The notes under the pieces: model-generated
Seen by the model: the letters and a program-made list of their open reading frames with translations, nothing else
The model's database searches: none
Told to the model about the DNA's origin: nothing
Program-made: the position numbers and the translations under genes
Source: Owenia fusiformis
Taxonomy: Eukaryota > Annelida > Polychaeta > Sabellida > Oweniidae
Reading direction: 5' to 3'
DNA length: 64,000 bases
Assembly: GCA_903813345.2 (NCBI GenBank)
Contig: CAIIXF020000004.1
Location: 4,359,525-4,423,524, forward strand
Part shown: piece by piece, positions 7,901 to 51,706 of the stretch
Layout: each line of letters starts with the position of its first letter
Position numbering within the stretch: position 1 is the stretch's first letter

Positions 7901-7907
7901 TGCTTCT

Positions 7908-8070
7908 CAACGGTTACAGTAGTTGCTACCAGCGGCATATTGTACGGTGAATCCGATGTCTACTTTTTGTATTTGTCACCCGCTCTGTCTAAGCGTAAAT
8001 TTACCAGTTCCTCTATCAGGAACGAGTGTTGCGTCATCAGCGTCACTGCTAAAATGATATACGATGGAAA
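7908..8070 (-). pseudogene. broken copy of the terminal (CBM2-like) exon of the LPMO-like gene
   Basis: Read on the minus strand, this stretch aligns with the last exon of the LPMO-like gene (12109-11927) and a little of its upstream intron. The shared peptide is RGTGKFTLRQSG, then QIQK, then DIGFTVQYAA. The copy is dead. The tryptophan codon after RQSG is TGA, a second in-frame TGA follows CNR, and the start of the exon has lost 2 nt, which shifts the frame and removes the first tryptophan. Its acceptor reads TTTTAG, where the live gene has TTTTAAG. No other exon of the gene was recognised beside it, so it is either a single-exon duplication or all that is left of a paralogue. Confidence 0.85.
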
Positions 8071-9671
8071 AATTCTAAAGAAGATCAACGCATCTCTGCC
8101 GTTACACTGTTAGATATGAAATAAGAGGAGGGAAAACCAATGAGTTCTAAGATGTCCTAAACTTCAATTGAAAATATAGAGATGGCTCTCATCGCTGATT
8201 GGTCGAATGACATAGGAGCTGATGAAGACAAAATGGCGTATTCAAAATTTTGTAAAAATGCTTCGAATATTATTACCAAAATAGCTCCGGACTGAACTAT
8301 TTTTAGAGTCTATGGAAGAAACATGAAGCCTCCTAGTGAAATACCATGGACTACTATAGTAACACAGGGCCTATTTATATTAGAAAAACGCTTCGCCCTG
8401 GCTCAGGAAAAAGTCTACCAGTGAACAACTGGTCATTAGGGGCTATTAGCAAACTACTTAAAAGGGTAACTAGGGAGCCACTTACTGGCCTAGTAATGTT
8501 CCGTTGGGGACTACTAGGTAACTACTTAACGAAGAGGTATAAGTGAACTAATAAGGCTAATTAGAGAACCACTAAAGCACCAGTAGAACATATTTAGAAA
8601 CCCAAATGAGGAGCATTCAAGAACTGTAAAAATCTATTGAAAAAATGATTGGACCATCTAGGAAACAACCAGCGAACCTAATATGGCTGTCCTTTATTTT
8701 TGCCTATCAAAGAGCGCATGTACCCGGAGCACTAGTTCTTCATAAATAATTTGTTAAGTTATTAAAATGGTTCCGTTTAATATGCTAAAACATTTTGCGG
8801 CAACCGCGCTAGCTTAAGTCATCAAGACTTGCGTTCAATATACCTTTATACTGGGCTATATACCTCTCATCACGTTTCAAAGCTATTTGTCTCTGCTGGT
8901 TATTATATGCAATTATTTTATATCCCTAGGTACTATATCTGACGCATATAAAATAGAATTCTAATATGATTAGTCGTATGTACCAGATAACTGCAACATG
9001 CGTGACAAAACTATTTCGTATATATCATACTGATTCTTTAGACGTATTATCTTAGACTAATTGATTTCATTTTCATATCTGATCACATGTGCCATCAGTA
9101 TTTAAAATTATGTAATCACATCGCCAAAAGGTTTAAGGCAAAGCGTATCAAAACGCTTATGGAAAATGAAGGTTGAAGACTACAAAAATGACCCCGAACA
9201 TACGTATCACGTTAATTACGTCCTCTCATTTAGAATAAATTAATTCACAGCCCCAAATCACACTAAAATTCCATCCATTGTTTGAAGGAAACCGCTATTG
9301 GCCACTCCTAGTGATTTTCAAACTATTTTTTCTATTATAAATTTAAATGAAATTTTGGCTATTTTATTTTATCTCATGTTGTATGATATTGATTTTGTTT
9401 TTATACATAACAGGATTCCCATTGACACAAGCATTTATAAATAATGTATGGGTTAGATACGCTAAGATGAATCTGACATAAGCGCAGTTATGATACCTTT
9501 TTTGTTTGGAAGTAAGTATCTATGGCAACCGCAACACATTGTGTATCTATATGATTTTGACATTCACTCCATAGCAATTTGATAATCAACTGCTCAGACA
9601 GTAATAAAAGAAGGGGCGGAGTAACACCAGCGTTTCCACGAATAGCCGCAGACGGCCAATTTACACCAACG
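8071..9671. other. no gene seen; upstream region of the PAN-WSC gene
   Basis: No domain-bearing exon is visible. Around 8340-8560 short CTACT/GGTAACTA-type motifs recur irregularly, without a clean period. The last few hundred bases presumably hold the promoter and 5' UTR of the PAN-WSC gene, but no clear TATA box or start element stands out. Confidence 0.4.
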
Positions 9672-11424
9672 ATGAATACGAACAGTTTGACATCAATAAT
9701 TTGGGTAATAACGTTTGCCCAAGCCTTGTTGGGCTTTTCAATTGCAATGAACTTTTATAAATTTAAAAACACGAGGCTGCTTAATGTAACGCGCGTGATA
9801 CCAATGTTGTCAGTAGACGAATGCGCCATTTACTGCGAATCAACGAAAGACTGTACTATGTTTAATTTTCGAAAGAGTAATGGCGACGATACATGTCAAT
9901 TGTTGGCGAAAAGTGGCACCCTTAAAAACGACCAATACGATTATGACCTTTGGCGACCTAATGAGCCAGGTATGTTCTATTATTCTGAAATAATTCAATG
10001 AGTTGTTATCGAATGATGCTGAAGCTTAACACACACACAATTTACATACTACTGTAGTACTTTAAAATATTTGAACGATACAGTTGACCGTAGAATTAAA
10101 AAAATTATAGCTCAACCATTCATATTTTCATACATATGATTTCATTCATGTATCGAAATTTACTTTTTTGCTGATTTTGATTTTATAGCACCGTTACAAT
10201 GTCAACTCCAAAATTCTCCGATTCAAAAGCTAGGCCTAACTAACAGCTTCATAAAAACATATAAAATAGGAATCTCAAAATTTGGTTTGATGAACCTCGA
10301 GACGAACATTATACTGTTGTTGGTTAACTTGTGTTACAGTTGGATTGATCTATGTGGGATGTTACAGGCAATTCTATTACGAATATTCGAATCGGAATAC
10401 ACCTTATGATAACCTCACACTGCAGCTATGTGTTGATGATTGCAGACAAAAAGGTAATACAACAATACTACTTGCAATTGATTAATGTGTCTAATTAATA
10501 TACGGGACGGAGTTCACCTTTTGACAACCTCACACTGAAGGGATTCATTGATGATTGCAGACAAAAAATGTAATACCACAATACTACTTGCAGTTGGTTA
10601 ATGTGTCTAATTAATACGCAGGTTGGGATACACCTCATGATAACCTAACACTGCAGGGATGTGTTAATAATTGCAGACAAAAAGGTAATTCCACAATACT
10701 ACTTGCAATTGATCAATGTGTCTCATTAATATGCGGGTTGGAAACCACCTCAAGTTAACCTCACACTGCAGGTATGTGTTGATGATTGCAGACAAAAAGG
10801 TAATACCACATTACTACTTGCAATTGATTGATATGTCTAAATAGTATGCGGATTGGAATACACCTTATGATAACCTCACACTGCAGCGATGTGTTGATGA
10901 TTGCAGACAAAAAGGTAATACCATAATACTATTTGCAATTGATTAATGTGTCTAATTAATATGCAAGTTGGAATACACCTTATGACAACATCACACTGCA
11001 GGGATGTGTTGATGATTGCAGACAAAAAGGTAATACCATAATACTACTTGCAATTGATTAATGTGTCAAATTAATATATAAGTTGGAATACACCTTATGA
11101 TAACCTCACATTGCAGGGATGTTTTGATGATTGCAGACAAAAAGGTTTCAATGTTTCATTTTTGCCAGACAACATTTGACTTTTGAAAGATTTTCATGAA
11201 ATGTCAGAAAAGTAGGCAAGATCTACATCCTGAATTCACACATTGATTCGTTTTGATCATTTTCAGGAAAAAAGTATGCGGGGGCGTTCGAAGGTTTCCG
11301 ATGTCTATGTGGAGATTTGTTACAGTATAGCAATTCTAGTATCTGCTCGATACCATGTAAAGGGAACGCAGCAGAAATATGCGGCGGAGAAGATTATAAC
11401 CACTTGTCTACATATCTTGTATAA
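9672..11424 (+). CDS. secreted PAN/apple-WSC domain protein, 3 exons, 189 aa
   Basis: The exons are 9672-9969, 10340-10453 and 11267-11424. All junctions are GT-AG, both are phase 1, and the joined frame ends in TAA. Residues 1-25 form a signal peptide with a hydrophobic core (IIWVITFAQALLGFSIA). Residues 26-97 form a PAN/apple-like domain with cysteines in DEC, YC, DC and TCQL contexts. Residues 103-187 form a WSC domain: YVGCYRQ at the start, LCVDDCRQKG and YAGAFEGFRCLCGD in the middle, and CSIPCKGNAAEICGG at the end. WSC and PAN domains bind carbohydrate or protein ligands outside the cell, so this is probably a small secreted lectin-like protein; the ligand is unknown. An in-frame ATG at 9579 exists, but the ATG at 9672 puts the hydrophobic segment at the N-terminus and is preferred. 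The gene converges on the LPMO-like gene, and the second intron is full of tandem copies of the exon-2 edge. Confidence 0.85.
10442..11150 (+). repeat. 115-bp tandem array amplified from the WSC exon-2 3' edge
   Basis: GCAGACAAAAA recurs at about 10442, 10558, 10673, 10788, 10903, 11018 and 11133, a period of 115 bp. Each unit carries the last 50 bases or so of WSC exon 2 (NLTLQ...CVDDCRQK), its donor GGTAATA and about 60 bp of intron. The first unit is the exon in use. Most of the others still encode the same peptide and keep a donor, but none has the exon's acceptor. The last unit has lost the donor consensus (GGTTTC). Confidence 0.9.
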
Positions 11425-11926: not shown

Positions 11927-14900
11927 TCAGTTGCCATTGACGACATTAACTGCGATATGGCCAGCTTCTCGACGGTTGCAGTTGCTATCAGCGGCATATT
12001 GTACAGTGAATCCGATGTCTGCCTTTTGTATTTGCCACCCGCTCTGTCTAAGAGTAAATTTACCAGTTCCTCTATCAGCAACGGGTGTTACGTCATCGGC
12101 GTGCCACACCTTAAAACAATATACGATGGAAAGGTCATTAAAGGGAGATTGATTCATCTGAGCCAAACGGTTGGACTTTTGGACCACGTGCATGATCCCA
12201 AATAAAGATACACGTAGGGACACGGAAGGGACTTCTTTGTTGGTAAGTTAATCGGGGAATATGTGGTACGACTCAGCATTCAAAAAATTCATGAGAAATA
12301 TTGAATTCTTATCCCTACAATAGTCAGGGAATGTCTTCACAATCTCTGGCTAAAATACTCTGAAGATCCAGAAACCTGAGTCATGTTTTAAGTCCAAAAT
12401 AGCGGTGTATTGAGAATCATACAATATTTTTCATTATCAGAAAAAGTTACAATTTTCAAAGATGCTTGCGTGAATCCTACAACAGTATGTTTTTTACTAT
12501 ATTCTTTATAGACTATGTATTTGTTTAAAAAAAATTGTTCAAAAAATTCATGAGAAATATTGAATTCTTATCCCTACAATAGACAGGGAATGTCTTCACA
12601 ATCTCTAGCTAAAATACTCCGAAGATCCAGAAACCATGTTTTAAGTCCAAAATAGCGGTGTATTGAGAATCATACAATATTTTTCATCATCAGAAAAAAG
12701 TTACAATTTCCAAAGATGCTTGCGTGAATCCTACAATAGTATGTTTTTTACTATATTCTTTATAGACTATGTATTTGCTAAAAAAAAATTTGTTCAAAAA
12801 ATTCATGAGAAATATTGAATTCTTATCCCTACAATAGACAGGGAATGTCTTCACAATCTCTAGCTAAAATACTCCGAAGATCCAGAAACCATGTTTTAAG
12901 TCCAAAATAGCAATATATTTAGAATCATACAATATTTTTCATTATCAGAAAAAGTTACAATTTTCAAAGATGCTTGCGTGAAACCTACAATAGTATGTTT
13001 TTTACTATATTCTTTATAGACTATGTATTTGTTAATGTACTTTTGTTACTTGTAAATATGTTGAATAAATTATTTTATATTTTAAGTCCAAATCTGTCTT
13101 GAGTGTGCTTCTGCTATGGCAACATGCCTCTTTAAGAGTAACAATAATGACAGAATATACAACAGCAAATCTTCGCGATTGTGCTCTCAAATACACAAAG
13201 CTTTAACTCCATTCCCTTCATTACTATATCAAATACAATAGTACCAAGTACGTTAGATGTTTTGACTGCCTCTTAGTATTTTAAAAATGTATAATGACGC
13301 TACTTACGTTGAATGAAGAAGGCACGCAGGGGAACTGAAGCGTGATGAACAGTGATCCGGCGTTCCTGTTGGGAGGAAGTTTAATCTCACCATTTGCGCC
13401 AGTGTTCCATTGTGACGTAAACGAAACCTTTAGATCTGAAATACATGCCTTACTCAAATAGTGATGTATAAACCAAGAATACATCCCTGAGGAACGAACA
13501 CGGGAAAAGGTTGAAAATTGATATTTTCATAAGAACAGATCTAGACCAACTATCAACTCTGGTTATTGATATATTATTGCACTAAATGCAGGACAGTTCT
13601 TTATATTGTTTAATTAACATGACGATTGTACTAAGCGCCCAGCTCTTCCCAATATTATATTCACATATAGCTAGGCATGACTTATCACCTATCAGATATA
13701 AAACCGTACAATTGTTGTATGATTATAATCTTTGAATTTTGGATCCGTTTCATACGAGGTCTCATACTGTACAAGACCTGTTTTTGATTTGACAATGGGC
13801 TTAATTTCTAAAACTATTAAATGTCCGTAAATATACCTTCCCAGCTTCCGCTCTGGCATGGAGCAGCTGCACATGCGCGTCTCTCATTGTTGTTGCCCCG
13901 ACAATATGCGCCGCCATTTTGTGGGAAGGGACTGTCGCAGTGACGGATTCTGGTCTGGATTCCATTTCCTAAACGAAACAATACATACCATTTTTGACTG
14001 AATTAGAAACTGAATTGGAAATGTATTAGGACTGTTTAACCAAGTATAAAAACACTAATTACCTTTGATTGCCAAAATGTAGCGGTTGATTAAACAAATT
14101 GTACTCTTTTAATATAAATGGTACATTCTGATAGATATTTGAAGAATTGGAGTATTTGCTGTGTTAAACACTGATCGATGAAGATCGTTAAGCAGACCGT
14201 TACATTATTTTAAAATGTGTCCTTTTTGAAAAAACCAATGTCTTACCACATGATACTGAACAGGTGCTCCATGTTGACCAACTACTCCAGCCTCCGTTTA
14301 CAGAGGCGCCACCCGTTGGTCCAACGCTGGGACGCTGAGTCTGTCGTGTTGCTTCAGTTGGTGGTTGAGAGGGGCCGGGAGAAGGTCGAACAACTTGCCC
14401 AGCGACATTTACTAGAATAAGGTTAGATCAGAGACATATGAAACATGTTTTATATGTCTCTGGTTGCCCAGCGACGTTTACTAGAATAAGTTTAGATCAG
14501 AGACATATAAAACATGTTTTATATGTCTCTGGTTGCCCAGCGACGTTTACTAGAATAAGGTTAGATCAGAGACATATAAAACATGTTGATATGTCCCTGG
14601 TTAGATGCATGTGTAATCAATAACGCACTCAATTTTGTATCCCTAAAACCAATCGAAATTTTCCCAAATTTTATGAGTCTTTTAAAATCGCCTTGAACTC
14701 GTGATCCAAAGGATTAATTATAATTGGTAATGATTGTACACATACCTGGCGATGCAGTCGTTTGAGCACGTTGTTTCAAAATGGCGTCACGTTCTGTCTT
14801 CGATGCGACGATATCGGCTTCCCAACAACCGGTATAGAGATCAGTGGGTCCGTTAAAATACCATGCCCAGACGAATGTATAGCGTCCTAGAAAAGCAAGA

Positions 14901-17219
14901 TTGAATATCGAATCAACACAGAAATATCCAATGCAACTTATGATTACGATTATGGTGGTTGACGGCAGAGCCATCTTTCAATAGATGACACATTATACCT
15001 CTTATCTTCAGGTTATAACTTGTGCAATTATGCCTCATCAGTTCCCGTTGCAATTGATTTGAATAGAGTCGATTGGGCTGAAGAGTTGATTAAGTAGTGC
15101 ATTGATTGTGAATATATAAGCACTAGTGCCAAAAGGGAAAGGACCAAAAGTTGTAATGGAACTTAACAAGAAAAAGCAAACTCTAAGTGCATACCAGTCA
15201 AGAAAAACAAACTCCATATAGCCCAAAACCATGATCTAACGTGAACAATCTCTAATACCCCCTTTCCCCACACCATTCAAAAACCAATATCACAACCCAA
15301 GACCAGAAGACCAAGGGACATTTCATTCATACTGAAGTCATTACAATACATGTTGAAGAAAAAATTAGAAATTGATAGCCAATTGAAAGCCAATACTCAT
15401 AACCTCAAAAATTGTTGTAGATACAAGTACTCATACAAGATAGAGCATTCAGTCTTAAATGACATATTTTTCTAGATCGAACGATTTAAAAGAAAATTGC
15501 ACGGGATTGTGATGATAAACTGAATGTTCTGGTAACCGATCAAGCAGAATTAAACGCTCCTTTCGAAAAGGATTTTCATATTTCTAGATATAGAATCGTG
15601 ATGAGTATCATTAAGCAGATCCAGTAATAATAATATCGTGAGTAATAATGATCCAAGTAAATAAGTAAAGCAAAAGTCTTCTCCAACTAGACTTTTATAT
15701 TGGAGCACTTACCAGTCTCGAAATTTGCGGGCAAGTTGAATGCAAAGGTTGCGAGGGCTTTATCGGGATTCTCGCAGAATTTTGGAGCATTTTGGAAACC
15801 AGGCTTAGGGTAGGTCATGGTAACCTGATCGGAGACATCATAACCATAAGGTGCAGTACCGAGGTCGACAACCATGTTTTGTTGGAAAACGTTGAAGGGG
15901 ACATCGGTTTTGCTGTCTTTGGGCCCCGCATAAACAAAGTTACCGTGATCCGGAATGTATTTGTTGGTGCATCTGACGTCAGCAACGTGATTCTAAAAAC
16001 AAAACAACGACTTTTGATTGTGACACAAAAAGTGTTATAAATAGTCTTCAACAGTTTAGATGGATGCCCAACTTGATTGGTGCAAAATAGCATCACGTGA
16101 TCCAGTAAACCTTGGGGAACTATTCTAAAATTGGATGTTTCGAGAATACAATCGCGTGATTCAGAGTCCGATGTCATTTTGAATGTACATCCTCATAGTC
16201 ACAAGCTCAAGTATTACTGTTATATTGCTTATTGTATCTTGTTAGGGGTCAATCAAAATGCCTTGGTAAAAAGTCGCTATGAATGTCATATTGGCAGTCA
16301 TCATTCATAAAATTCAAAATGGCTGTCTGATTGACCAGTGGCAAATGTATTCAATGAGATGAGGATTAAATGATCTGATACGTACTGGTTTAATGTCATG
16401 ATTTGTCCACTAATAATGATTCCTTCATAAAGGCACTGGGCCCCGAGACACATTTTACTCGAGTGTACATGTACCTACTTTTGTTGGGTGAGTGACGACA
16501 ATTCTCTGCCCGGGATAATACACTGCCATTGGATGGGCACTATCATAGCTGGAGTCATCTCTCGCTGTCCTACACGGGGCTGACATGGGAGGATTATTTA
16601 TATTGTATCCAGTGTCCAGGCCAAATAGACCATCACGATGAGCGAATCTAAAATCACACAGAAAACTCAAAATGTAATGAGAAAGCGAAGTGAAGGCAAA
16701 AGCAAGAGCGCAACTGGAACAAGGACACCAACAACCCATGCTAATTACCCAAACCCACAAAATATAAGCGATTTTAAAGAAAAAAGGCCATGCTAATTTA
16801 GTCCTTATCCATGGCATGGATCAATATGACCAATTACTTTAAAACTATGCCCTTGCTTCGAGAACAGTCCAAGGGATGGTTCCAGGATTTTTAAGTCCTT
16901 CTCTCAGGCTACTAAGTCTAACATCACTGTTTTTTATCTTAATCAAATACAAGTAACTAGATAAGATCAGTCGTTTGCTAATATAGTAATTAACGGAGTT
17001 ATGCTCTACAAAGCTTATTACCAAAGTACTCCTTGTTCTTTTTTAAACAAAGATTATTGTCAACTAAAAAACGAATTACCTGTTTGCGTGACGAGGCCAT
17101 GCTCTACATAGCTTATTATCCCAGTACTCTCCGTTTTCCTCCAGGTAATCAGTGCATGTCAACCAGGAATGGGACACAACAACCCCCACAAGACAAGCGG
17201 CAATCACACACTTCAACAT
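11927..17219 (-). CDS. secreted LPMO-like copper monooxygenase with TSP1 and CBM2-like modules, 8 exons, 445 aa
   Basis: The exons in coding order are 17219-17080, 16647-16479, 15992-15713, 14886-14746, 14411-14247, 13968-13837, 13435-13308 and 12109-11927. All have GT donors and AG acceptors, and the phases join into one frame that ends in TGA. Residues 1-16 (MLKCVIAACLVGVVVS) are a signal peptide, and cleavage leaves His17 (HSWLTCTDY) as the N-terminus, as the histidine brace of lytic polysaccharide monooxygenases needs. PGQRIVVTHPTKNHV supplies the second brace histidine (His105). An aromatic strand, YTFVWAWYFN (199-208), is followed by YTGCWEADIV, an LPMO-like ending. A Pro/Thr/Ser-rich linker covers about 240-282. 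A TSP1 repeat follows (W285, W288, W291; WSTCSVSCG; six cysteines, to about residue 340). The C-terminal module (343-445) looks CBM2-like, with Trp352, Trp387 and Trp410. The protein probably oxidises chitin or cellulose outside the cell. The CAZy family is not assigned; the last acceptor is a weak AAG. Confidence 0.85.
12279..13040. repeat. tandem repeat, about 257-bp unit, 3 copies, in the last LPMO intron
   Basis: TTCAAAAAATTCATGAGAAA recurs at 12279, 12538 and 12793. Each unit continues through CAATCTCT(A/G)GCTAAAATACT and ends with ACTATATTCTTTATAGACTA. The copies are highly similar, so the amplification is recent. They lie wholly inside the intron between exons 7 and 8 of the LPMO-like gene. 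Confidence 0.9.
14391..14600 (-). repeat. 69-bp tandem array containing the TSP1-exon acceptor and a palindrome
   Basis: Three copies with a 69-bp period (anchors CAGAGACAT at 14429, 14498 and 14567). Each copy contains the first bases of LPMO exon 5 plus its acceptor (CTAG/TAAA on the minus strand), followed by an inverted repeat. In the middle copy, 14499-14530 is a perfect 32-bp palindrome with half-site AGAGACATATAAAACA. The first copy has one mismatch and the third is degraded. Confidence 0.9.
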
Positions 17220-23600: not shown

Positions 23601-26600
23601 GCGCCCAATCGCCTAGCTCGAACGTGCCGGCGCTCAAGTACATACTCGCATCTAGGTATTATTGATTTCTTCCATTCTTTGTCAAAATGGAATACTCTAC
23701 TTTAGGTTACCTAGGTAAATGTATGGGAGGGACCGTTTGGAATAATGAGCAGTTGACATGTGATGACCCTAAGCAAGTCGCCGGATGTGACCCAACTACT
23801 TGTACAGGTATAAGGAGATCCAATGGAGATAAATATCGGCCATTGAACAGTTCAATCCATTTATAGTTCGAACTTTTATATTTTCCGTTATTTGATATAT
23901 GTGGGTTTTATGTATTTATTGTGCATTCATGCATAGGATTGGATGGGATAAAAATGTGTTGTTTTTATGTTTAGACTACAATGTGTTTTTATAATACTTA
24001 TTTTTAACAGATGGTATACCATCATACCCATTTTCATCCCACCATATATACTTTTCTGACAAAATATTATTACGCCGTTTTTATAAGAATTCGCAATGTT
24101 TTCCGATTGCGTTGTAATGTCTCATTAAACTGACGCATGTTTTGATACTATCGCCCTCAGTCCTAACTCAGACCACACCCGAGTATTGTTAATAGTTTAC
24201 TAAATAAAGTTAAATGGGACTGCCAACTTTTTGGACGGAATGTATAACACGATTTAAATGTTAAATCTAGTATTTAACGTTGTATTTTAGTTCCAATGAG
24301 AACCACGGCGTTATGCCCGGACGATCTAGAATCAGGTATTAAAAATTATTTAGTTTCTGTTTCTGTTCAAGTCAGTGATATAAGTTCTAGTTTTGCGTGC
24401 ACTGACCACATTCGTGACTTCAACGCACGCATTTACACGCCCGGTGATCGTACAAAATGGTTGGAGGGGGGGGGGGAGTTATATTTCTCTACGTCTTTAC
24501 GATGGAACAAATTCCCAAGAACTCGTGAATTTGAAAAAGCTAAACTCAGTACCCCAGTAAGAAACTGGATATTATATCTCTGGAGAATGAAAAATGGGAA
24601 AAACTTGGAGTTACAAGAATACATTTAAGTAGCATGTCTTATCATGTCTTCTATACACGTTACTCCCCCCTCCAGGCCTCCATCCACTACCCCCTCCATC
24701 CATATTGATTGATTTCAATTATTTTTTGTATAACGCATGAAAACTAACTTTAAAAAGTGAGCAATGTCATTAGTGTAGACCATTGTTGCCTGATTTATAG
24801 CAAGAACATTGACTTTTGCACGTTGATGATGATGCGCCTTTTTTAATAGATCTCATATCTTAGAAGCGTATCAGTTCAAAAAATACTAGAGGACCTAACA
24901 TATTTTGCCATGAACTGCGCCTATTCATTTGACAATTCAGTTGTAAATTTTCTCTTGAATAAATAATTATCTTCCAAATTTGTTGAGTTTTCTTGCAGAC
25001 TTCGCCTACTCCCCCCCTCCATCCATTTTGTACGATCACCGGGCGTTATTTATAGTATTTCTAATTCTTTATTTGTCGTGGCTTGTACGCCACTGCATTA
25101 TAACTTTTCTATTACAGGGCAATGTTGTATTGGTGGACGTGAGCCAATTTACACCCAGCTATCAGATTCAACCTACACACTCGGAGACGGAGAACACTCG
25201 TGTCCAGGTGGCCAACTCTTTAACGTCGAAGACTGCTGTTGCGAAGCTGAATGTAAGTTACCAATCCCCGGGAATAGTAATTACACAAAACGAAACTATT
25301 ATAATCGTATTGGGGAGAGGTTCGACAAGGTTCAAGTAAACCCAAGTCTAAAATAATTAATTTTTACAGATAGCATATTATGGTCGAACTAACCACATTG
25401 ATTTTTAACGTATACATAAAAATATTGGTCGAGACTTGAGATATATGCAGTGTCATTCAAAATTGAAACTTCTGATTGGGTTCGAAGCCGAGATGCCCGG
25501 ATATGACCGAGCAAAAGCCGGAATTCACGTGATTTTTCACCAAGAAGGGGCGGAGTTTAAGCGAGATTCATCGAGACTTCTCCGTGTCAATGGTGTCAAT
25601 CCCTGCATTGCTTGTTGTTAACTCCACCTTTTTGTTGTATATAAAATATATCAATTTTATTCGATATATGAGGCTTGAGTCATTTAGTGCACAAATTGCA
25701 CTAAATACACACATTGGGAAATAATAAAACTTAATATTTTCACAATAACACAGCGGGAATCATATGATGCAGAATAATCATAATACTGCGCCCAGCCACT
25801 TCATCTCGACAATTCATGAGATCAAAATAACTTCAAAGGTTTTAGAAATACATATTGATAGAATATTATTCAAACCGGCCTCATTCCAGTTTTATGTTGA
25901 ATTGTTGTTGATTTATTTTAATTCCATAGTTTTATTAGCTATCCGAACATGACTGCATTCACACCTTCTATAGACTGTGAACAAAGTCAACATTTCACCC
26001 GGGGTATATTCGCAAACAATACCCCTGGTGATACGAGTAATGTATGACGTCATAACGGCGAGCCGTATTTTGGTGAGTTTTCATGTTGGAATCGTAATAT
26101 AGACCTCAGAGCAGGGGTAATGTCGTCGAATACACCCCCTAGGGCTAGGCACAAAAGCTTTCGAACCCCTCATTCCCTTCGGGCGTTACGATATTACCCC
26201 TGCTCTTCGGTCTGTATTTCTTAATTAATAGAATATTATCCAAACCGGACTCATTCCAGTTTTTTGTTGTTATTGTTGTTGATTTATTTCAATTCCATAG
26301 TTTTATCAGCTATTAACTTGATGTCACAGGGCTTTGCAAATGATATTTTATTGCTATTACAATGCGGTCATTGTTGAGTTACTGAGCCTGTATTCGCGAA
26401 TGCAACTACGCCTGTCGGCTACCGGATTTTTCTTTTTAGTTACTACCGTTGTCAATGTTATGATCTGGTTTCAATTTTTTGAAATTTCGTTTCAGTTACT
26501 CCCGTTCTTCCATGTTATGCTCTGGTTTTATTTTTTGAAATTTCGTTTCAGTTGCCGCAGTTCCTCCATGCGATGATCTGGTTTAATTTTTTGAAATTTC

Positions 26601-29600
26601 GTTTTTGTTACTCCCGTTCTTCCATGTTATATTCTGGTTTCATTTTTTGAAATTTCGTTTCAGTTACTCCCGTTCTTCCATGTTATGCTCTGGTTTTATT
26701 TTTTGAAATTTCGTTTCAGTTGCCGCAGTTCCTCCATGTTATGATCTGGTTTCATTTTTTGAAATTTCGTTTCAGTTGCCGCAGTTCCTCCATGTTATGA
26801 TCTGGTTTCATTTTTTGAAATTTCGTTTCAGTTGCCGCAGTTCCTCCATGCGATGATCTAGATTCATTATACTTCACGCTCCCAGATACAGATCCATCCG
26901 GTCTACCAAATGATATCATGGATAAATGCTGTGCGTTTGCACAATGCTGGTCAAACAGGTATGCTAAACGCTGCAAATAAAGATAAATAAAGATGTGAAC
27001 CATGTCCTAGGACGTTTTTAAGAATGTAGTACGCAATTATGCAATTCTCAAATTTGACTTGAAAAAGGTACTTGACATTGACCTGCTTCAATTAATGACT
27101 GCGTTGGTGATTATAATCAGATGGTAATTGTTAAATATTAATTTGACCAAAATAGTAATATTAATGTATCAAAAGACTGGATATGACCTTGTACCATGTA
27201 TGCTAACATCAATTGTACCTGTATTTTATTGTTGTCAAAATAGTAATATTTATATATCAAATGACAGTATATGAACTTGCATTGTTCCATGCATGTTTGT
27301 TATTATTACAAGTATTATTATTAGTAATATAGTAATTCTGTTGATAGATAAGATAAGACTGAATATGACCTTATAGCATTCATGCTATGATCAATTTTAT
27401 GTAATTGTTGTCAAAATAGTTTTTATTTTAATACAAAGTAAGACCGAAAACCATGCATGCCAACATCAATTTTATGTTATTGTTGCCAAAATAGTAATTC
27501 TATTGATGTATAATAGGACTGGGTATGACCTTGTACCATGCATGCCCCCTAGCGTATGGAACGCGGAAGCTAAAGCTTGTGATATACGTGCTAATGTTAT
27601 GGAGTGTATGGACATCAACTGCGGAAGTGCGTACTATTTCAATATGCATACTAGTATATCTATTAGTTACATAAATTCTCATTTGTCACTTATTTTGACT
27701 TCACATATGTCGTCACTTTAAAATGAAGTTTCTACATTTTGATAAATATATCTTAATCATCCCATTCGGATTGCTTTCCATAAGTAGAATCGCTTATTGG
27801 TTGACTTTAAATGATCATTTGTAAAAGTCGTTGTCTAAAATATTTCCAATGACAAAATCGATTAAAACTGTAAAATCATGAAAAATATCCAGAGTCAGTG
27901 AGCTGGTTTGATTAATTTGATTAATGTCTATTATCGCATATTATTTCCAGTTGAAATGACTGACCCACCATGTCCTGGTCCTGAAGAACTTGAAGAAGGT
28001 AGGATTGGTTTTATCAATCAAGTTCATCATACTATTAACATGAGTTGACTTTGGATTGAGTTTTACTTACTGGGGTTGAGTTTTCCAGGGGTTGCGTTGA
28101 CTTGGGTTTGAGCTTTACTCAGATTGAGTTTTACTGGGTTGAGTTGACTTGGGTTTGAGCTTTACTCAGATCAAGTTTTACTGGGTTGAGTTGACTTGGG
28201 GTTGAGCTTTACTCAGGTTGAGTTTTACTGGGTTGAGTTGACTTGGGGTTGAGCTTTACTCAGGTTGAGTTTTACTGGGTTGAGTTGACTTGGCGTTGAC
28301 CTTTACTCAGGTTGAGTTTTACTGGGTTGAGTTGAGTTGACTTGGGGTTGAGCTTTACTCAGGTTGAGTTTTACTGGGTTGAGTTGACTTGGGTTGAGCT
28401 TTACTTAGCTTGAGTTTTACTGGGTTGAGTTGACTTGGGGTTGAAATGACCAAGAAGCGGCTTTTATGGACCTGCATTCCATTCTCAGTTCTAATCTAGT
28501 TTATGGTAAATATTGTTAAAAATTTCAGTTGTCGTTTTTGGAGATTTTAACACACAAACACCGCAATAGATTTGATATTTCTTTTCAGGTCAGTGTTGTA
28601 TGGCCGGCCAGGTATACTCTACTTTTGAGGATAAGACAATGTACATGAGAGAACCAGGGCCTCTGGCTTTAGGATTACTCAAAATCCAATGTTGTCCAGA
28701 GTAAGTGAAATATTTTAACTGGTATATTCAAGGGTAAATTAAAAAGATCAACTATGTTATTGGGTGCCGTAACCACGAGGTTGCGAGTTCGAGACGTGTG
28801 TGCCCCTTGTGTTTATTCATTTATGTTTTGAAGTGAATACTTAACAATAGGCCTTAATGTGTTTTGAGGTGTTGACGACATCTGTTATTGTAAAAATAGT
28901 TATTTTTAACTTTTTTGTCGGCATGATATCTAAATTTCTCTCGGCGCATTAAAACTAGGCGTCACGGAGCAACTCCACAAGAAGTTTCAGATGACTAGAT
29001 CAACTAGATGCACTTTTATGCAAAATAATTTATACTTTTGATATTAAGGGGGGGGGGAGAACATATTTATATGACACCCTGTGGATGTATGTCACCGGGG
29101 TATCTCCCATGGCCAACGATCACACGAATATACTTTGTAAACCCGCATAATAAACAAATACTGGATGATCAGGAGCTGGATATGGCAGAATACATATTCG
29201 AGAAAAAATATTGGGCGAGGCGGCAGCCGAGCCCAATATTTTTTCGAGGATAGGTATTCTGGCCATATCCAGCTCCTGATCATCCAGTATTTGTTTTATT
29301 ATGCACCTCCCAATCAAAGTTAAGTGGAGTACTTACGGTTTAGTTGACATTATTTTGACATTTATTTATTTTTTCTTTCAAAACTCACACGACTTCCGGC
29401 CAGTTTATTCGCTACACTGGACGAAAATATTTGCCCCGGGAATCTAATTTTTATTTATTCGAGACGTTCTTGCAGAATTATATGTAACTTTTGAATGATA
29501 AGGGTAATTGTGATTGATTAAGTGCATTTTTTCTTCTATTTTCCGCCAGTTTCAGATGTAAGCTTTAAGTAGTACTCCAGTTATTAAGAAATAAAACTCT

Positions 29601-42659: not shown

Positions 42660-44190
42660 GTACCTAACAAAAGGTACGATATTGTAGTCAGCTTGACGGG
42701 CAGGCGGCGGGCGGGCGGCGGGCGGGCGGGCGGGCGGGCGGGCGGCGTCTCACTTTTCAGCTTGTCTACAGGTTTCCAGCCAAACCATTTGAGGGATTCA
42801 TCTAAAATTTTCAGGGATGTTTCTACATATCAACGTCAAGAGCTGATTAGTTTTTGGGCATTCTGGGTAAATATTAAGGTGGCCATTTTGGATTTCCCGT
42901 CCTAAAATCTTCACTTTCAAGACTTGTCTACAGGTTTCCAGCCAAACCATTTGAGGGATTCATCTGAATTTTTAGGGATGTTTCTACATATCAACGTCAA
43001 GAACTGATTAGTTTTTGGGCATTCTGGGTAAATCTTAAGGTGGCCATTTTGGATTTTCCGCCCTAAAATCTTCACTTTCAAGACTTGTCTACAGGTTTCC
43101 AGCCATTTGAGGGATTCATCTGAAATTTTCAGGGATGTTTCTACATATAAACGTCAAGAACTGATTAGTTTTTGGGCATTTTGGGTAAATCTTAAGGAGG
43201 CCATTTTGGATTTTCCGTCCTAAAATCTTCACTTTCAAGACTTGTCTACAGGTTTCCAGCCAAACCATTTGAGGGATTCATCTGAAATTTTTAGGGATGT
43301 TTCTACATATCAACGTCAAGAACTGATTAGTTTTTGGGCATTCTGGGTAAATCTTAAGGAGGCCATTTTGGATTTTCCGTCCTAAAATCTTCACTTTCAA
43401 GACTTGTCTACAGGTTTCCAGCCAAACCATTTGAGGGATTCATCTGAAATTTTCAGGGATGTTTCTACATATCAACGTTAAGAACTGATTTGTTTTTGGG
43501 CATTCTTGGTAAATCTTAAAGTGGCCATTTTGGATTTTCCGTCCTAAAATCTTCACTTTCAAGACTTGTCTACAGGTCTCCAGCCAAACCATTTGAGGGA
43601 TTCATCTGAAATTTTCAGGGATGTTTCTACATATAAACGTCAAGAACTGATTAGTTTTTGGGCATTCTGGGTAAATCTTAAGGTGGCCATTTTGGATTTT
43701 CCGTCCTAAAATCTTCACTTTCAAGACTTTTCTACAGGTTTCCAGCCAAACCATTTGAGGGATTCATCTGAAATTTTTAGGGATGTTTCTACATATCAAC
43801 GTCAAGAACTGATTAGTTTTTGGGCATTCTGGGTAAATCTTAAGGTGGCCATTTTGGATTTTCCGTCGTAAAATCTTCACTTTCAAGACTTGTCTACAGG
43901 TTTCCAGCCAAACCATTTGAGGGATTCATCTGAAATTTTCAGGAATGTTTCTACATATCAACGTCAAGAATTGATTAGTTTTTGGGCATTCTGGGTAAAT
44001 CTTAAGGTGGCCATTTTGGATTTTCCGTCCTTAAAATCTTCACCTTCAAGACTTGTCTACAGAATTTCCAGCCAAACCGTTCAAATTTTTACATATGTTA
44101 CACAGTGATAAGTTCTAGAGCTGATTAACTTTTCTGCGGCCATCTTGCTTTCTTGGTCAACAAGACCACAATGCTGTGTTTTAGGTACGA
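42660..44190. repeat. 162-bp tandem array, about 9 copies, headed by a GGCGGGC run and a hairpin
   Basis: CTTGTCTACAGGTTTCCAGC recurs at 42761, 42923, 43084, 43241, 43403, 43565, 43727, 43889 and 44052, a period of 157-163 bp. Each unit carries GGGATGTTTCTACATATCAA and GGCCATTTTGGATTTTCCG. A hairpin (GTACCT...AGGTAC, about 42660-42677) and a GGCGGGCGGGC stretch (about 42700-42748) precede it, and GGTACGATATT appears at both ends of the whole block. Short frames beginning 'STGFQPNHLRDSS' come from the repeat. Confidence 0.93.
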
Positions 44191-44599
44191 TATTCTTCAC
44201 GTCTGTGCCTTGTTGTTTTTATAATGCCATATATTCGTCTTCCCACTCGGCGGAAGGATCTAATAGTTGTGTGTCTCCTAAACAAAATGCGGTCTCAGAC
44301 TGAGCTGTAACCCCTTGTGCGAATCCTCGTCATCATATTGTCTATTAAGATTGTGGATATATGGAAGGAAAATATCTAAGACATATAAACAATGAATATC
44401 AATTTTCCCTTTGCGATATAGCTTTTACATTTTTTCAAAGTCCTGTTTAAATGAGATTTTGAGCAAGGGATGACTCATCTCTTTCACCTCTCGACATTTT
44501 TAAGTAAAATGTGCATCCACAGAATTCAATTTGATAATTTAGCATAATTGACTTTTACAACGTGTATGCATCTATTTCGATATATTTGATTCTGTAAAC

Positions 44600-45640
44600 A
44601 TTATGTGACAAATATGTAGCTGTTCTTGACTTAAATAAATATATATTTAAAAAAGAATTCAATTTCCGAAGATTTTTTAACTTTCTGAAAAAGTCAGATC
44701 ACGAATCAAAAAGAATTTTGAGATTAAATGAATTTATGGACCGTTTTAACACAAAAATAAACTTCTTAGATTTTCTAAGTCTGAAAAACACAATTCCTGA
44801 AAAATGGAAAAAAATAATATCTGAAAATAATAAACCGCCTGAATATTATTCTGAATATAAAAAACATGTGTTAAAATTAATGGAAAAGAAAAAAATTTGT
44901 AAAATAATTTACTGGGAACTAATTAAAAACCTTGATTACAACGACAACTATGTGTATAAATGGAACGGTGATTTAGATATTAATATTGAAGACCATGAAT
45001 GGAAAAACATTAATAAAATTAATAAAATAAGTAACTATGAACCTAAATTAGCATCTTTCAACTATAAAGTAATCCACAGATTTCTACCGACAAATAAATA
45101 CTTAAAGATGTGTGGTATTAAGGAATCTGATAAATGCTGTTTTTGCAATAGACACATAGAGACCCTGGTGCACCTGTTTTTAACGTGTGAGGTTGTCGAA
45201 ATGGTAATTCAAGATATTAAAAACTGGCTTCCTAAAAAGCTTTCTGATTTATGTGACAAAAGTACAATCACTTTAGGACCAGTAATTATAAATACATGTA
45301 GTGAAACAATATTGATAAATACAATTTTATCTATATACAGGAGATATATATACTTATGTAAATGTCTAAAGGTGCGTCCAACCTTTCTGGGACTGAAGAG
45401 AAACATAGAAGAATACTATTTAATAGATGTAAAAGAAGGAAGAGGAGATAAATGGAAGGATATTAAAAATTTATTGTAATTACATGTACTACAAGTTTAT
45501 ACTGCTTCATATTTTCCATGTTGTATAATTTTCATACTATTGTAAATGCTAACAATGTTTTAGGGAAACGTGAACACGTCTGTGTTAGGCAATGCTTGCC
45601 AAGAGTTTAATAAAAGAGAAATAAAAATCCATTAAAAAAT
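44600..45640 (+). mobile_element. 5'-truncated LINE retrotransposon, 3' end
   Basis: One open frame runs from about 44595 (no ATG needed) to a TAA at 45479. The C-terminal 250 residues look like the region after the reverse transcriptase in non-LTR retrotransposons. They include a zf-RVT-like zinc knuckle, CCFCNRHIETLVHLFLTC (C-x2-C-x7-H-x4-C), and the typical SFNYKVIHRFLPT segment just before it. The reverse transcriptase and endonuclease domains are missing, as expected for 5' truncation. A short 3' UTR with AATAAA ends in an AT microsatellite at about 45635-45652. The intact frame suggests recent insertion. The clade is not assigned. Confidence 0.8.
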
Positions 45641-48244: not shown

Positions 48245-49564
48245 TTACACGTTTTCTGCTTTAGTAGGTATTTCTGTCATCGTTAATGGCGCGTGACTGT
48301 CATTTTCTGCTTTTGTTTGGTTATCATTCATCGTCATGGTAACTGTATTGTCGTTGCTATTCGAGACCACAGTATAGTCTGTAGTGGTATTTCCGTTTTG
48401 TACGTGCGAGCGTTCTGAGCAAAATATTTGCCCAAATATGGACCTATATTTTGCGTTAATGTCCGGAGAGCGAATGCTGTAAACGATAGGATCGAGGATG
48501 AAATTGATATATGGAAAATATGTTATAAAATTGTTGTAGACACTAATTATGTTTTGATCAAAATGGGCACTCCTGTAGACTTTTACTGCAATGTAGGGCA
48601 CTCCTGTTGATACCAGTATCACTAACAGAATTAAGATTGTAATGAAAGCGTGTTTGTCCTTTTCACTGTCTCGGATTGAATCATCATTTTTGCTTTTCGT
48701 CGACGACCTGAACGATGCAGTTCTCACGAACAAGTCTCGCGAAAGGCTGAGGTACAGGCACACGACGATCACGAGTATTAATGCCTTCCCTCCCGCCCAT
48801 ATGTATTTCCAGTTCGCACAAAATGTATAGGCGCCTTTTGTCATACATTCAATTGGCGTGGATGACGTATCTTTTTCAGCGTTTGTGTAATATGTTGCGT
48901 TTTCAGTTGATATGTTTGGCATTCCGACTAAATTGGAATCCATTCCAAACGTTGCCTCTCGATTATAAGCTTGCCTTTGTAAATGACTGCATCTCTGTTT
49001 CGCCTTGTCACATACGATAGTTGGTAAGGTAAAGCAAAGAGATATGAACCAACAAAGCACAATATACAGCGCCACCTTTTTCGTACTTTCAAAGAGAGGT
49101 TTGAATGAGTGTGGTTTAGTGATACCGATGAAGCGCATTATGGCGAACACGAGCAGCGTCACGGCTGACGTAAAGAAAAACAAACTGAAGCACGTGCCAC
49201 CAATTTTGAAGAGCATATTACACGTTTCTATCGCAACGTTCCAGTGGGTTCCAGCACGAAATGCTACATCGCCAACATAAATTGCAAGAGTTCCTAGTAT
49301 GTCACAAATCGCTAAATTCACGAACAACTTCGTGAAAGGTGTCTGCTTTGGTAGAAAGATGACGATCAACATTGTAGCGAAGTTGGCAATTATAGCAGTC
49401 GCACATAAAATTGTCGATAGTATCGTGAATGTGATAATAGAAGTATCCGACTCTAGTTTAAACATATCGAAGTTGAATGAAAAATTCCCATCACTACTGT
49501 TTGATAGGTTCCCAGCCATCATCGCAAAATTAAACGACTCCATCCTATGCAATGAAAATCTCAC
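48245..49564 (-). CDS. class A (rhodopsin-like) G protein-coupled receptor, single exon, 439 aa
   Basis: An uninterrupted frame with seven hydrophobic segments. N-glycosylation sites sit near the N-terminus (NLSNSS, NFSF). TM1 is about 43-70 with Asn61, TM2 about 77-98 with NLAICD (Asp88), Cys115 precedes TM3, Trp172 lies in TM4, TM5 is about 253-275, TM6 about 304-330 with VSTGVPY, and TM7 about 345-365 with DPIVY. These match the class A landmarks. The DRY motif is replaced by MRF (143-145), the TM6 CWxP reads STGVP and NPxxY reads DPIVY. The second extracellular loop is long (about 65 residues, four cysteines). The tail holds an imperfect repeat around TKAEN. Codon 8 is also ATG, so the start may be there. 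The DPIVY-type TM7 recalls receptors for lipids, melanocortins or nucleosides, but the ligand cannot be told. It is probably at the cell surface, coupled to a heterotrimeric G protein. Confidence 0.88.
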   Translation of the reverse strand: MRFSLHRMESFNFAMMAGNLSNSSDGNFSFNFDMFKLESDTSIITFTILSTILCATAIIANFATMLIVIFLPKQTPFTKLFVNLAICDILGTLAIYVGDVAFRAGTHWNVAIETCNMLFKIGGTCFSLFFFTSAVTLLVFAIMRFIGITKPHSFKPLFESTKKVALYIVLCWFISLCFTLPTIVCDKAKQRCSHLQRQAYNREATFGMDSNLVGMPNISTENATYYTNAEKDTSSTPIECMTKGAYTFCANWKYIWAGGKALILVIVVCLYLSLSRDLFVRTASFRSSTKSKNDDSIRDSEKDKHAFITILILLVILVSTGVPYIAVKVYRSAHFDQNIISVYNNFITYFPYINFILDPIVYSIRSPDINAKYRSIFGQIFCSERSHVQNGNTTTDYTVVSNSNDNTVTMTMNDNQTKAENDSHAPLTMTEIPTKAENV

Positions 49565-51706
49565 TTTCTCAGACTCAAATGTCTTGTATGGTTTCTTTAC
49601 AAGGATCTTTTCTTTTGTCGCTTTCTTTTGACTTTCGCAATAATGCCGTAATCCGAAGTAATCGAGCGTAAACTTAATTTCCGCGCAATAAAACCAAGCT
49701 CGAACGTTGATTGTATTATTCCGGGTAACTAACTTGATGAGATTCCACTATCACCAGCAAACACGAGAGTATTACAAATACACTGTCAGCCAATAGTCGT
49801 TCAATCTGAATTCAACTCCATTGACAATGTCACGGCTTCCTTTGTGATCACCAAGCTTTCCTCAATTTAATAAGAAAAATCGTGGCAATTCCTAAGTCGA
49901 AATAATCTCTATTGTCAAGTACAGATTCCTATTGTGCACCGTGTCTATTCTTGACGTCTCAATATGGCTATGTATCAATCCCAAGTCTTTCCACTTATGA
50001 TCAGTCACGGGGGATAAGCTGAGAACTCATAAACGTGTCAGCGTATAAATAATATATCCTCAGTTCCTTTTGGTGTTTCTTTGAAGTCTGGCAACCTCGT
50101 TCTTCTAGGCCCCAATTAGGGAAATTTAGACAAAAGCATCAACACGCAAACCCTCGTTGTCATGGAGATTGACACCAATAATGAACTTCTCTGGAAATAA
50201 AGGAAACAAGTTCATTTATTTTTCTCATTAACAACATCCGATATACCGTCCTTAGAAGTTCTTCAACTAAAATTGAATGATGAATTAATTAATATATGCC
50301 GATGGCCTTTTCTAGATTACATCGCGTGCAATGAGACAAAATTATAACTTGGCGTGACCATGAGAGGGACATTCCCAGATATTTTGTCTAGGCAAATGCT
50401 AGGTGTAGTAATACGATGGTCGTATATCGTCGGAGTACCGTTGGACATATAGCATAAGTTATATGTGACATCCGTGACTGTGATAGCAATACATTTAATA
50501 AAAATATGGTATCAAAGTATAAAGGTTAAACAAATCATCTGTAAGATTTGTGCCCTTTGTGTCATCGTTATTCAAAATACGTACATGACAGATCCTACAA
50601 ATTACTTTGTGTTTTGTGCTTCACAACACTTTGATACGTTTCACTAATTGTTATTTTGACAAAGCCAATTCGTCACATCAAACCCAAAGATGAGTTCCAT
50701 AAAACATTTCGAAGAATTGTCAGTAGATTTTTTAAGTTCGGGATGATATGTGAACTTGTGAAGATATCCGTTTCACTCAATTTATCCTAAAATGTTAACT
50801 AAAAACGATGCACTGATTCTCTATCTTTTTTAAATTGCAAAACCGAATCTCAAAAACAGTACAAATTTCCTTTTTAAATTATAACTTTGATTTGTTATGA
50901 GGTCAAATGAGTATATTTCTCCCTTTAAAACGCGCGAGTACTTAACTCGATTCCCTTATCCCTCATCAAATTATGATTTCGTCCTATCTCATTTCAATAG
51001 GTGGTCATTGACAATGAGTTATCATTTAGTTAAAAGTTGCATTACAAAGATAACAAGGCATTAACATGACAAAATGTCACAACCTGCAAACAGGAACAAA
51101 CGTGTAACAATTGAAAAATATGGAGGGTTAAAATTGAAATCTAAAGTCAGATTTGTTTTCCTGAGAACTTGCTGATGATTTTGAAATAATTTGGTCAATT
51201 TGTAGCAAGTCAAATCTGAAATGTAATCAGATTTGGACTCCTGGGAACTTGTAGACGATTTTAAAAAAGGTCAGTTTAAAGCAAGTTTGGAAAATAACTT
51301 TTTGACCTTGAGAAGAACATTGAAGGACATCTTTGATGATTTTGAAATAATGAAGCCAGTCCAAACAGTTAAAATTGTAAAATTTTGTTACAAGAATTTG
51401 TTACAAGAAATTTGGCCTTTTGATCTTCAGAAGGTCATTGAAGGTCAATTCAGTCAGATTTGAACATCTGGGAACTTGTAGATGATTATGAAAAAATTGA
51501 AGCCTGTCTAAACAGTGGAATTTATAAGATTGTGTTACAAGACATTTGTTACGGACGCCGACCGCCTTCCAGGAAAAAGTTAGATAGATAAAAGAATGAT
51601 ATTGTTAGCCCCTCCAATGAGATATAAAAGTTCATAAAGTATGGTAATCCACAGATAAGTCGAGTTGCGTTGGGCATAATACCAAATTCTTGGCCTTATT
51701 TATGTA
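49565..51706. other. GPCR upstream region, then unassigned sequence
   Basis: Minus-strand promoter and 5' UTR of the GPCR should lie just above 49564, but no clear core promoter is seen. From 51130 to 51560 a phrase of the type 'CAGATTTG..CTCCTGGGAACTTGTAGA.GATT' occurs three times in diverged form, suggesting an old tandem repeat. No further exon was recognised. Confidence 0.45.

Follow-up and report, generated by a model that had tools for sequence, protein, structure and literature searches.

Gene Structure and Domain Layout

All positions given here refer to the window, a 64,000-nt stretch of Owenia fusiformis contig CAIIXF020000004.1 (assembly GCA_903813345.2; 4,359,525-4,423,524). On its minus strand, we investigated a gene that runs from an ATG at 17219 to a TGA at 11927 and joins eight exons into a protein of 445 residues. 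In order, the translation comprises a signal peptide, His17 as the predicted first mature residue, a domain resembling lytic polysaccharide monooxygenases (LPMOs), a Pro/Thr linker, a single TSP1 repeat, and a C-terminal module. All seven introns are GT-AG, phases are kept across the eight exons, and the guanine-cytosine (GC) content of the exons (0.47-0.56) lies well above that of the introns (0.29-0.37), which bears out the eight-exon, 445-residue frame proposed in the initial annotation. All eight frames are free of stop codons; were stops as frequent as in the introns, the joint probability of this would be about 10^-12.9, although this is a biased test because the exons were selected for being open.

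Exon 1 (17219-17080) contains the start codon, the signal peptide, and His17 (mature His1) within an HSW motif. The LPMO-like domain continues through exon 2 (16647-16479; residues 47-103) and exon 3 (15992-15713), the latter contributing His105 (mature His89), proposed as the other histidine of a copper-binding brace. Exon 4 (14886-14746) encodes GRYTFVWAWYFNGPTDLYTGC, which includes Trp203, Trp205, Asp212, the putative axial Tyr214, and Cys217. Exon 5 (14411-14247) holds the Pro/Thr-rich linker and the start of the TSP1 repeat, and exon 6 (13968-13837) the remainder of that repeat. The C-terminal module is divided between exon 7 (13435-13308; GC 0.48) and exon 8 (12109-11927), which ends with the stop codon. 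The features read in the initial annotation, namely His17 in HSW, His105 in KNHV, FVWAWYF, the Pro-rich linker, and WSSWSTWSTCSVSCG, are all present in this translation, and the three spaced tryptophans of the last module are found at residues 352, 387, and 410. Three 69-nt tandem copies at 14395-14602 take in the exon-5 acceptor and the first bases of that exon.

The predicted signal peptide (17172-17219, minus strand; residues 1-16, MLKCVIAACLVGVVVS) is a hydrophobic leader with Val at -3 and Ser at -1, residues that under the signal-cleavage rule place the cut before His17. By this reading of the sequence, the mature protein would begin with His, a trait of the LPMO superfamily, in line with the earlier proposal of a leader that exposes His17.

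Another possible acceptor lies 48 nt before exon 8 (exon start at 12157) and would add 16 residues to give a 461-residue form. We prefer the 445-residue form because the pyrimidine tract at its acceptor is richer (0.71 vs. 0.59), the added 48 nt have an intron-like GC of 0.31, and its C-terminal module scores higher against a CBM2 profile (see below).

Splice sites, phase, GC, and domain matches together establish the gene structure. Homology matches cross four of the joins, those to DUF7492 spanning joins 1/2 and 2/3 (residues 17-140) and 3/4 (residues 187-235), and that to TSP_1 spanning join 5/6. Joins 4/5, 6/7, and 7/8 lie outside any homology match, and their support consists of splice sites, phase, and GC. 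It could thus be argued that exons 1-4, with the LPMO-like domain, and exons 5-8 come from separate transcripts, or that exons 7-8 lie outside the gene. Most of intron 7 is made up of three 254-nt tandem units (12279-13035), and an unspliced exon 6 would hit a stop a few codons inside intron 6. Canonical splice sites, preserved phase, and an exon-like GC throughout the eight exons argue against such an error, as does exon 5, which begins inside the linker without a Met codon; we consider an error of this kind quite unlikely.

A Narrow Match to DUF7492

The 445-residue protein scores 29.1 bits against Pfam DUF7492 (PF24320), narrowly over the gathering cut-off of 27. The 461-residue form scores 29.0 bits, and a 229-residue piece comprising the domain and some of the linker 29.5 bits. 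Beyond passing the cut-off, the protein resembles the family in that His17, His105, Trp205, Tyr214, and Cys217 fall on conserved columns of the profile. It differs in residue 212, which is Asp here where the profile scores Glu 1.6 bits better, and in the TSP1 repeat and C-terminal module appended to the domain. We found no paper naming DUF7492 in the literature searched, a body of work that most subscription papers lay outside.

Against the DUF7492 profile, we compared 23 single substitutions with the unchanged domain, which scores 29.5 bits. The biggest losses were seen with H105A (23.2 bits), W205A (23.2), C217A (23.6), Y214A (23.9), and C72A (24.5), and further losses of more than 2 bits with W19A (25.0), Y214H (25.2), H17A (26.1), Y214F (26.3), G93A (26.5), and H100A (26.8). 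H105A thus costs 6.3 bits, W19A 4.5, and H17A 3.4, the last of these bounded because His17 is the end residue. For four of the five control histidines, the substitution lowered the score by no more than 0.3 bits (H44A 29.3, H50A 29.2, H85A 29.5, H119A 29.7). The remaining changes stayed within 1 bit (C111A 30.1, N104A 30.0, W41A 29.5, P42A 30.2, D212A 28.6) or concerned the nature of residue 212, two positions before the putative axial Tyr214. This residue is Asp, as against the Asn, Gln, or Glu of the LPMO superfamily, and D212E raised the score to 31.1 bits (+1.6), while D212Q gave 29.7 (+0.2) and D212N 29.4 (-0.1).

As judged from its profile, DUF7492 conserves an N-terminal His, a second His (the column of His105), and a Tyr/Cys motif favouring E-x-Y-x-x-C, which is the histidine-brace set of LPMOs. 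The losses at the brace residues therefore make DUF7492 itself look like a histidine-brace family. This yields a functional proposal for the family, whose conserved columns appear to contain the full set.

Relationship to AA11

Using phmmer with a 284-residue query that included the signal peptide and linker, we searched 177,635 PDB sequences up to E = 10 and obtained seven matches. The best three are AA11 LPMOs (4mah, E = 3.2e-5; 9exj, E = 8.8e-5; 7p3u, E = 0.023), and the other four are unrelated (E 0.47 to 0.68). As a control, reversing the 229-residue domain exactly yielded a single unrelated hit at E = 0.068, and an inexact reverse matched unrelated sequences with E values as low as 0.015; the third AA11 match therefore has little weight alone.

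In these alignments, Tyr214 is paired with residue 140 of 4mah, for which the metal ligands are listed as His1, His60, and Tyr140 (PMC5094447). Trp203, Trp205, Asp212, and Tyr214 align to Trp129, Trp131, Glu139, and Tyr141 of 9exj (AfAA11B), described as the two core tryptophans, the second-sphere glutamate, and the axial tyrosine, respectively (PMC12186267). Around the axial Tyr, the domain is thus related to AA11 by sequence. It has in common with AoAA11 (4mah/4mai), AfAA11B (9exj), and AfAA11A (7p3u) the N-terminal His, an axial Tyr in the same strand and loop, the two core Trp, an acidic residue two before the Tyr, and a Cys three after it. The differences lie in the acidic residue, Glu there and Asp here, and in the spacing between the second His and the axial Tyr. 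This spacing is 109 residues here (His89-Tyr198, mature numbering), compared with 80 in AA11, 83 in a viral AA10, and 133 in AA13 among the table rows available from PMC5094447.

The fungal AA11 enzymes oxidise chitin. The family was called exclusively fungal in 2019 (PMC6420742). Some of its members bear an X278 module or a disordered tail (PMC8615602), whereas a TSP1 repeat is appended here; the AA11 descriptions available in the literature searched included none with TSP1.

The DUF7492 match, the similarity to AA11, and the positions of His17, His105, and Tyr214 on conserved columns all support the LPMO-like domain of the initial annotation. Its statement that the protein could be matched to no named family is in part corrected, because the domain passes the DUF7492 cut-off and is AA11-related; it does not resemble AA15.

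Comparison With Other LPMO Families

CAZy auxiliary activity families run up to AA18, and our family comparison covered AA11, AA15, and AA16. Given its animal origin, the domain might be expected to belong to AA15, a family described as mainly metazoan. Like Thermobia TdAA15A, the protein is animal, predicted to be secreted, and LPMO-like, and it has in common with that enzyme the T-x-N-H motif around the second His. It had no match up to E = 10 with Pfam LPMO_10, which we take to be the model recognising AA15, and none in NCBIfam; HMMER filters drop most matches above E of about 0.1. AA15 sequences are recognised by Pfam as LPMOs (PMC5823890), and the family, reported as 95% metazoan (PMC6950343), includes proteins that may bear extra modules, WSC among them (PMC5823890, PMC8615602). 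The axial position is Phe in AA15 and Tyr214 here, and the domain has six cysteines as against the ten reported as conserved in the Thermobia protein and its best matches. We accordingly rejected membership of AA15/LPMO_10, given the missing LPMO_10 match and the axial Tyr, and regard it as highly improbable.

AA16, formerly LPMO14, is a mostly fungal family for which matches have been reported in bivalves, sea anemones, and stony corals (PMC5320794), and an axial Tyr is common to it and the present domain. At the level of motif the two are set apart, with Q-T/N-Y in AA16 as described in PMC6420742 and D-L-Y here. At position 212, the DUF7492 profile prefers Glu over either Gln or Asn, which also argues against AA16, and there is very little chance that the domain belongs to this family.

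A further group, LPMO16 (A. niger An07g08250), has been described as putative LPMOs related to AA11, AA14, and AA16 (PMC5320794, PMC6950343), with 78% of its members fungal and 4% from Metazoa (PMC6950343). LPMO16 is possibly the same as DUF7492. LPMO-like sequences outside AA15 are therefore not new in animals, for which earlier reports describe both LPMO14/AA16-like and LPMO16 sequences.

The TSP1 Repeat and C-Terminal Module

The TSP1 repeat is certain. Residues 286-336 match TSP_1 (PF00090) over the full profile (1-49 of 49) at 57.7 bits, against a cut-off of 21.6 (E = 1.4e-15), and contain WSxW motifs and six Cys from 294 to 336. This confirms the repeat named in the initial annotation. 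The combination of an LPMO-like domain with TSP1 appears to be new, within a known kind of protein; in the literature searched, we found no LPMO-TSP1 fusion and no paper that brings together an LPMO, CBM2, and a thrombospondin type domain. Two papers mention both LPMOs and thrombospondin, and to judge by their titles neither deals with a fusion of the two.

The C-terminal module, described in the initial annotation as CBM2-like, has no Pfam match up to E = 10, CBM_2 included. Against the PDB, the module of the 461-residue form gave three unrelated matches (E 0.81 to 1.8), none of them CBM2, and that of the 445-residue form gave none. A custom profile combined 80 bacterial CBM2 loci with four PDB CBM2 pieces. 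Against it, the module of the 445-residue form scored 8.3 bits, a value reached by 20 of 5000 shuffles of its own sequence (p = 0.004), as compared to 6.4 bits for the 461-residue form (70 of 5000) and 0.7 bits for the reversed module (2548 of 5000). The alignment spans the QWNTG half of the module only. The module resembles CBM2 of C. fimi Cex (1exg) in its QWNTG block and three spaced Trp, and differs from it in having no Pfam match. "CBM2-like" is thus kept as a weak lead, suggested by the custom profile and by these motifs.

Searches with the module against plasmids returned four Komagataeibacter records at E = 8, which we judged to be chance, and none of four pattern matches in viral contigs was confirmed. 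At 7902-8070 on the minus strand, exon 8 recurs in degenerate form (87% identity over 172 aligned columns); this copy has in-frame stops and represents a duplicated pseudo-exon.

A Putative Matrix-Held Copper Oxygenase

Having found DUF7492 and TSP1 domains in one protein, with the brace residues on conserved family columns, we consider it probable that the gene encodes an animal protein that is secreted, belongs to a DUF7492/AA11-related branch of the LPMO superfamily rather than to AA15, and acts as a matrix-held copper oxygenase. In the mechanism we propose, removal of the signal peptide would allow His17, through its N-terminal amine and side chain, and His105 to hold one copper ion, with Tyr214 axial to the metal and Asp212 beside it. 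The reduced copper, together with H2O2 or O2, would then oxidise a polysaccharide C-H bond, while the TSP1 repeat and C-terminal module may anchor the catalytic domain on the extracellular matrix or a polysaccharide surface. The substrate may be chitin or cellulose, the role for which the protein was initially put forward.

Several observations weigh against this interpretation. The DUF7492 score exceeds the cut-off by only about 2 bits, a 211-residue cut of the domain falls just under it (26.6 bits), and the score is a sum over residues 17-140 and 187-235, neither of which alone reaches E = 0.01. One of the five control histidines is not neutral, as H100A costs 2.7 bits. The AA11 match comprises 56 residues only (183-238), near the end of the domain, and stops short of the second histidine. 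The Tyr-Glu second sphere of AA11 is absent, with Asp212 in the place of Glu, and in AfAA11B the corresponding E139D change reduced both the stability and the rate under apparent monooxygenase conditions (0.026 vs. 0.088 per s). Moreover, no homologue of the domain was found in the collections searched: tblastn gave no relatives in phages or plasmids at E up to 0.1, viral contigs gave none in a search reaching close relatives only, and, with the same reach, none of five pattern matches in species genomes was confirmed. DUF7492 was found in none of three prokaryotic genomes and none of 198 from a single phylum (one genome common to both sets), but since 14 control genomes gave nothing either, these counts do not demonstrate its absence.

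The strongest rival explanation is that of a copper-binding protein with an LPMO fold, tied to the matrix through TSP1, that has no polysaccharide oxygenase activity. Fungal X325 proteins, which are LPMO-like, are suspected of a role in copper homeostasis (PMC8615602), and the literature searched described no activity for DUF7492. Asp at the Glu/Gln position would also fit such a protein. On the other hand, the axial Tyr, both core Trp, and the acidic second-sphere residue resemble the set of active AA11 enzymes, and AfAA11B E139D kept its initial rate with H2O2 (2.2 vs. 1.9 uM/s). The behaviour of this variant suggests that a protein with Asp naturally in place of Glu could still be catalytic, though the difference is not neutral. 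On balance, we regard a protein devoid of oxygenase activity as an unlikely alternative to the matrix-held oxygenase.

More tentatively, the gene may represent a further non-AA15 lineage of animal LPMOs with a natural Tyr-Asp second sphere, recruited through TSP1 and remodelling the animal's own matrix polysaccharide rather than digesting food. If the oxygenase interpretation is correct, the union of an AA11-related copper domain with a matrix module in an animal would widen the settings in which oxidative polysaccharide cleavage may operate, adding matrix remodelling to digestion and moulting. With its natural Asp, the protein would also offer a test case for how the residue at the Glu/Gln position tunes copper chemistry.

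Genomic Surroundings

We gave the neighbouring genes no weight in assigning a function to the LPMO-like gene. A tblastn search of the window turned up no second LPMO-like gene, only the broken exon 8 copy described above, and Rfam and tRNA scans of its 64 kb found nothing. The PAN, WSC, and rhodopsin-type receptor matches listed below, like the TSP1 repeat and the spliced gene itself, point to an animal genome. On the plus strand at 9561-11424, convergent with the LPMO-like gene, are matches to PAN (31 bits, cut-off 21.4) and WSC (31.2 bits, cut-off 27.8) that perhaps belong to one gene. Within this region (10394-11146, plus strand), a 115-nt unit is repeated in tandem about 6.5 times; it contains a small exon-like WSC piece (CVDDCRQK) with splice-like flanks, a possible mini-exon duplication. 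At 23666-27718 (plus strand), two pieces resemble the chitin-binding CBM_14 domain, one at 22.0 bits (cut-off 22.1) and the other at 12.7 bits; they may belong to a peritrophin-like gene.

Farther along the window, a 162-nt tandem repeat of 8.2 copies (42750-44078) has open frames on both strands. It is followed at 44598-45476 (plus strand) by an open frame that matches zf-RVT at 42.7 bits and is probably what remains of a retroelement. A single open frame at 48248-49747 (minus strand) matches rhodopsin-type receptors (7tm_1, 64.2 bits).

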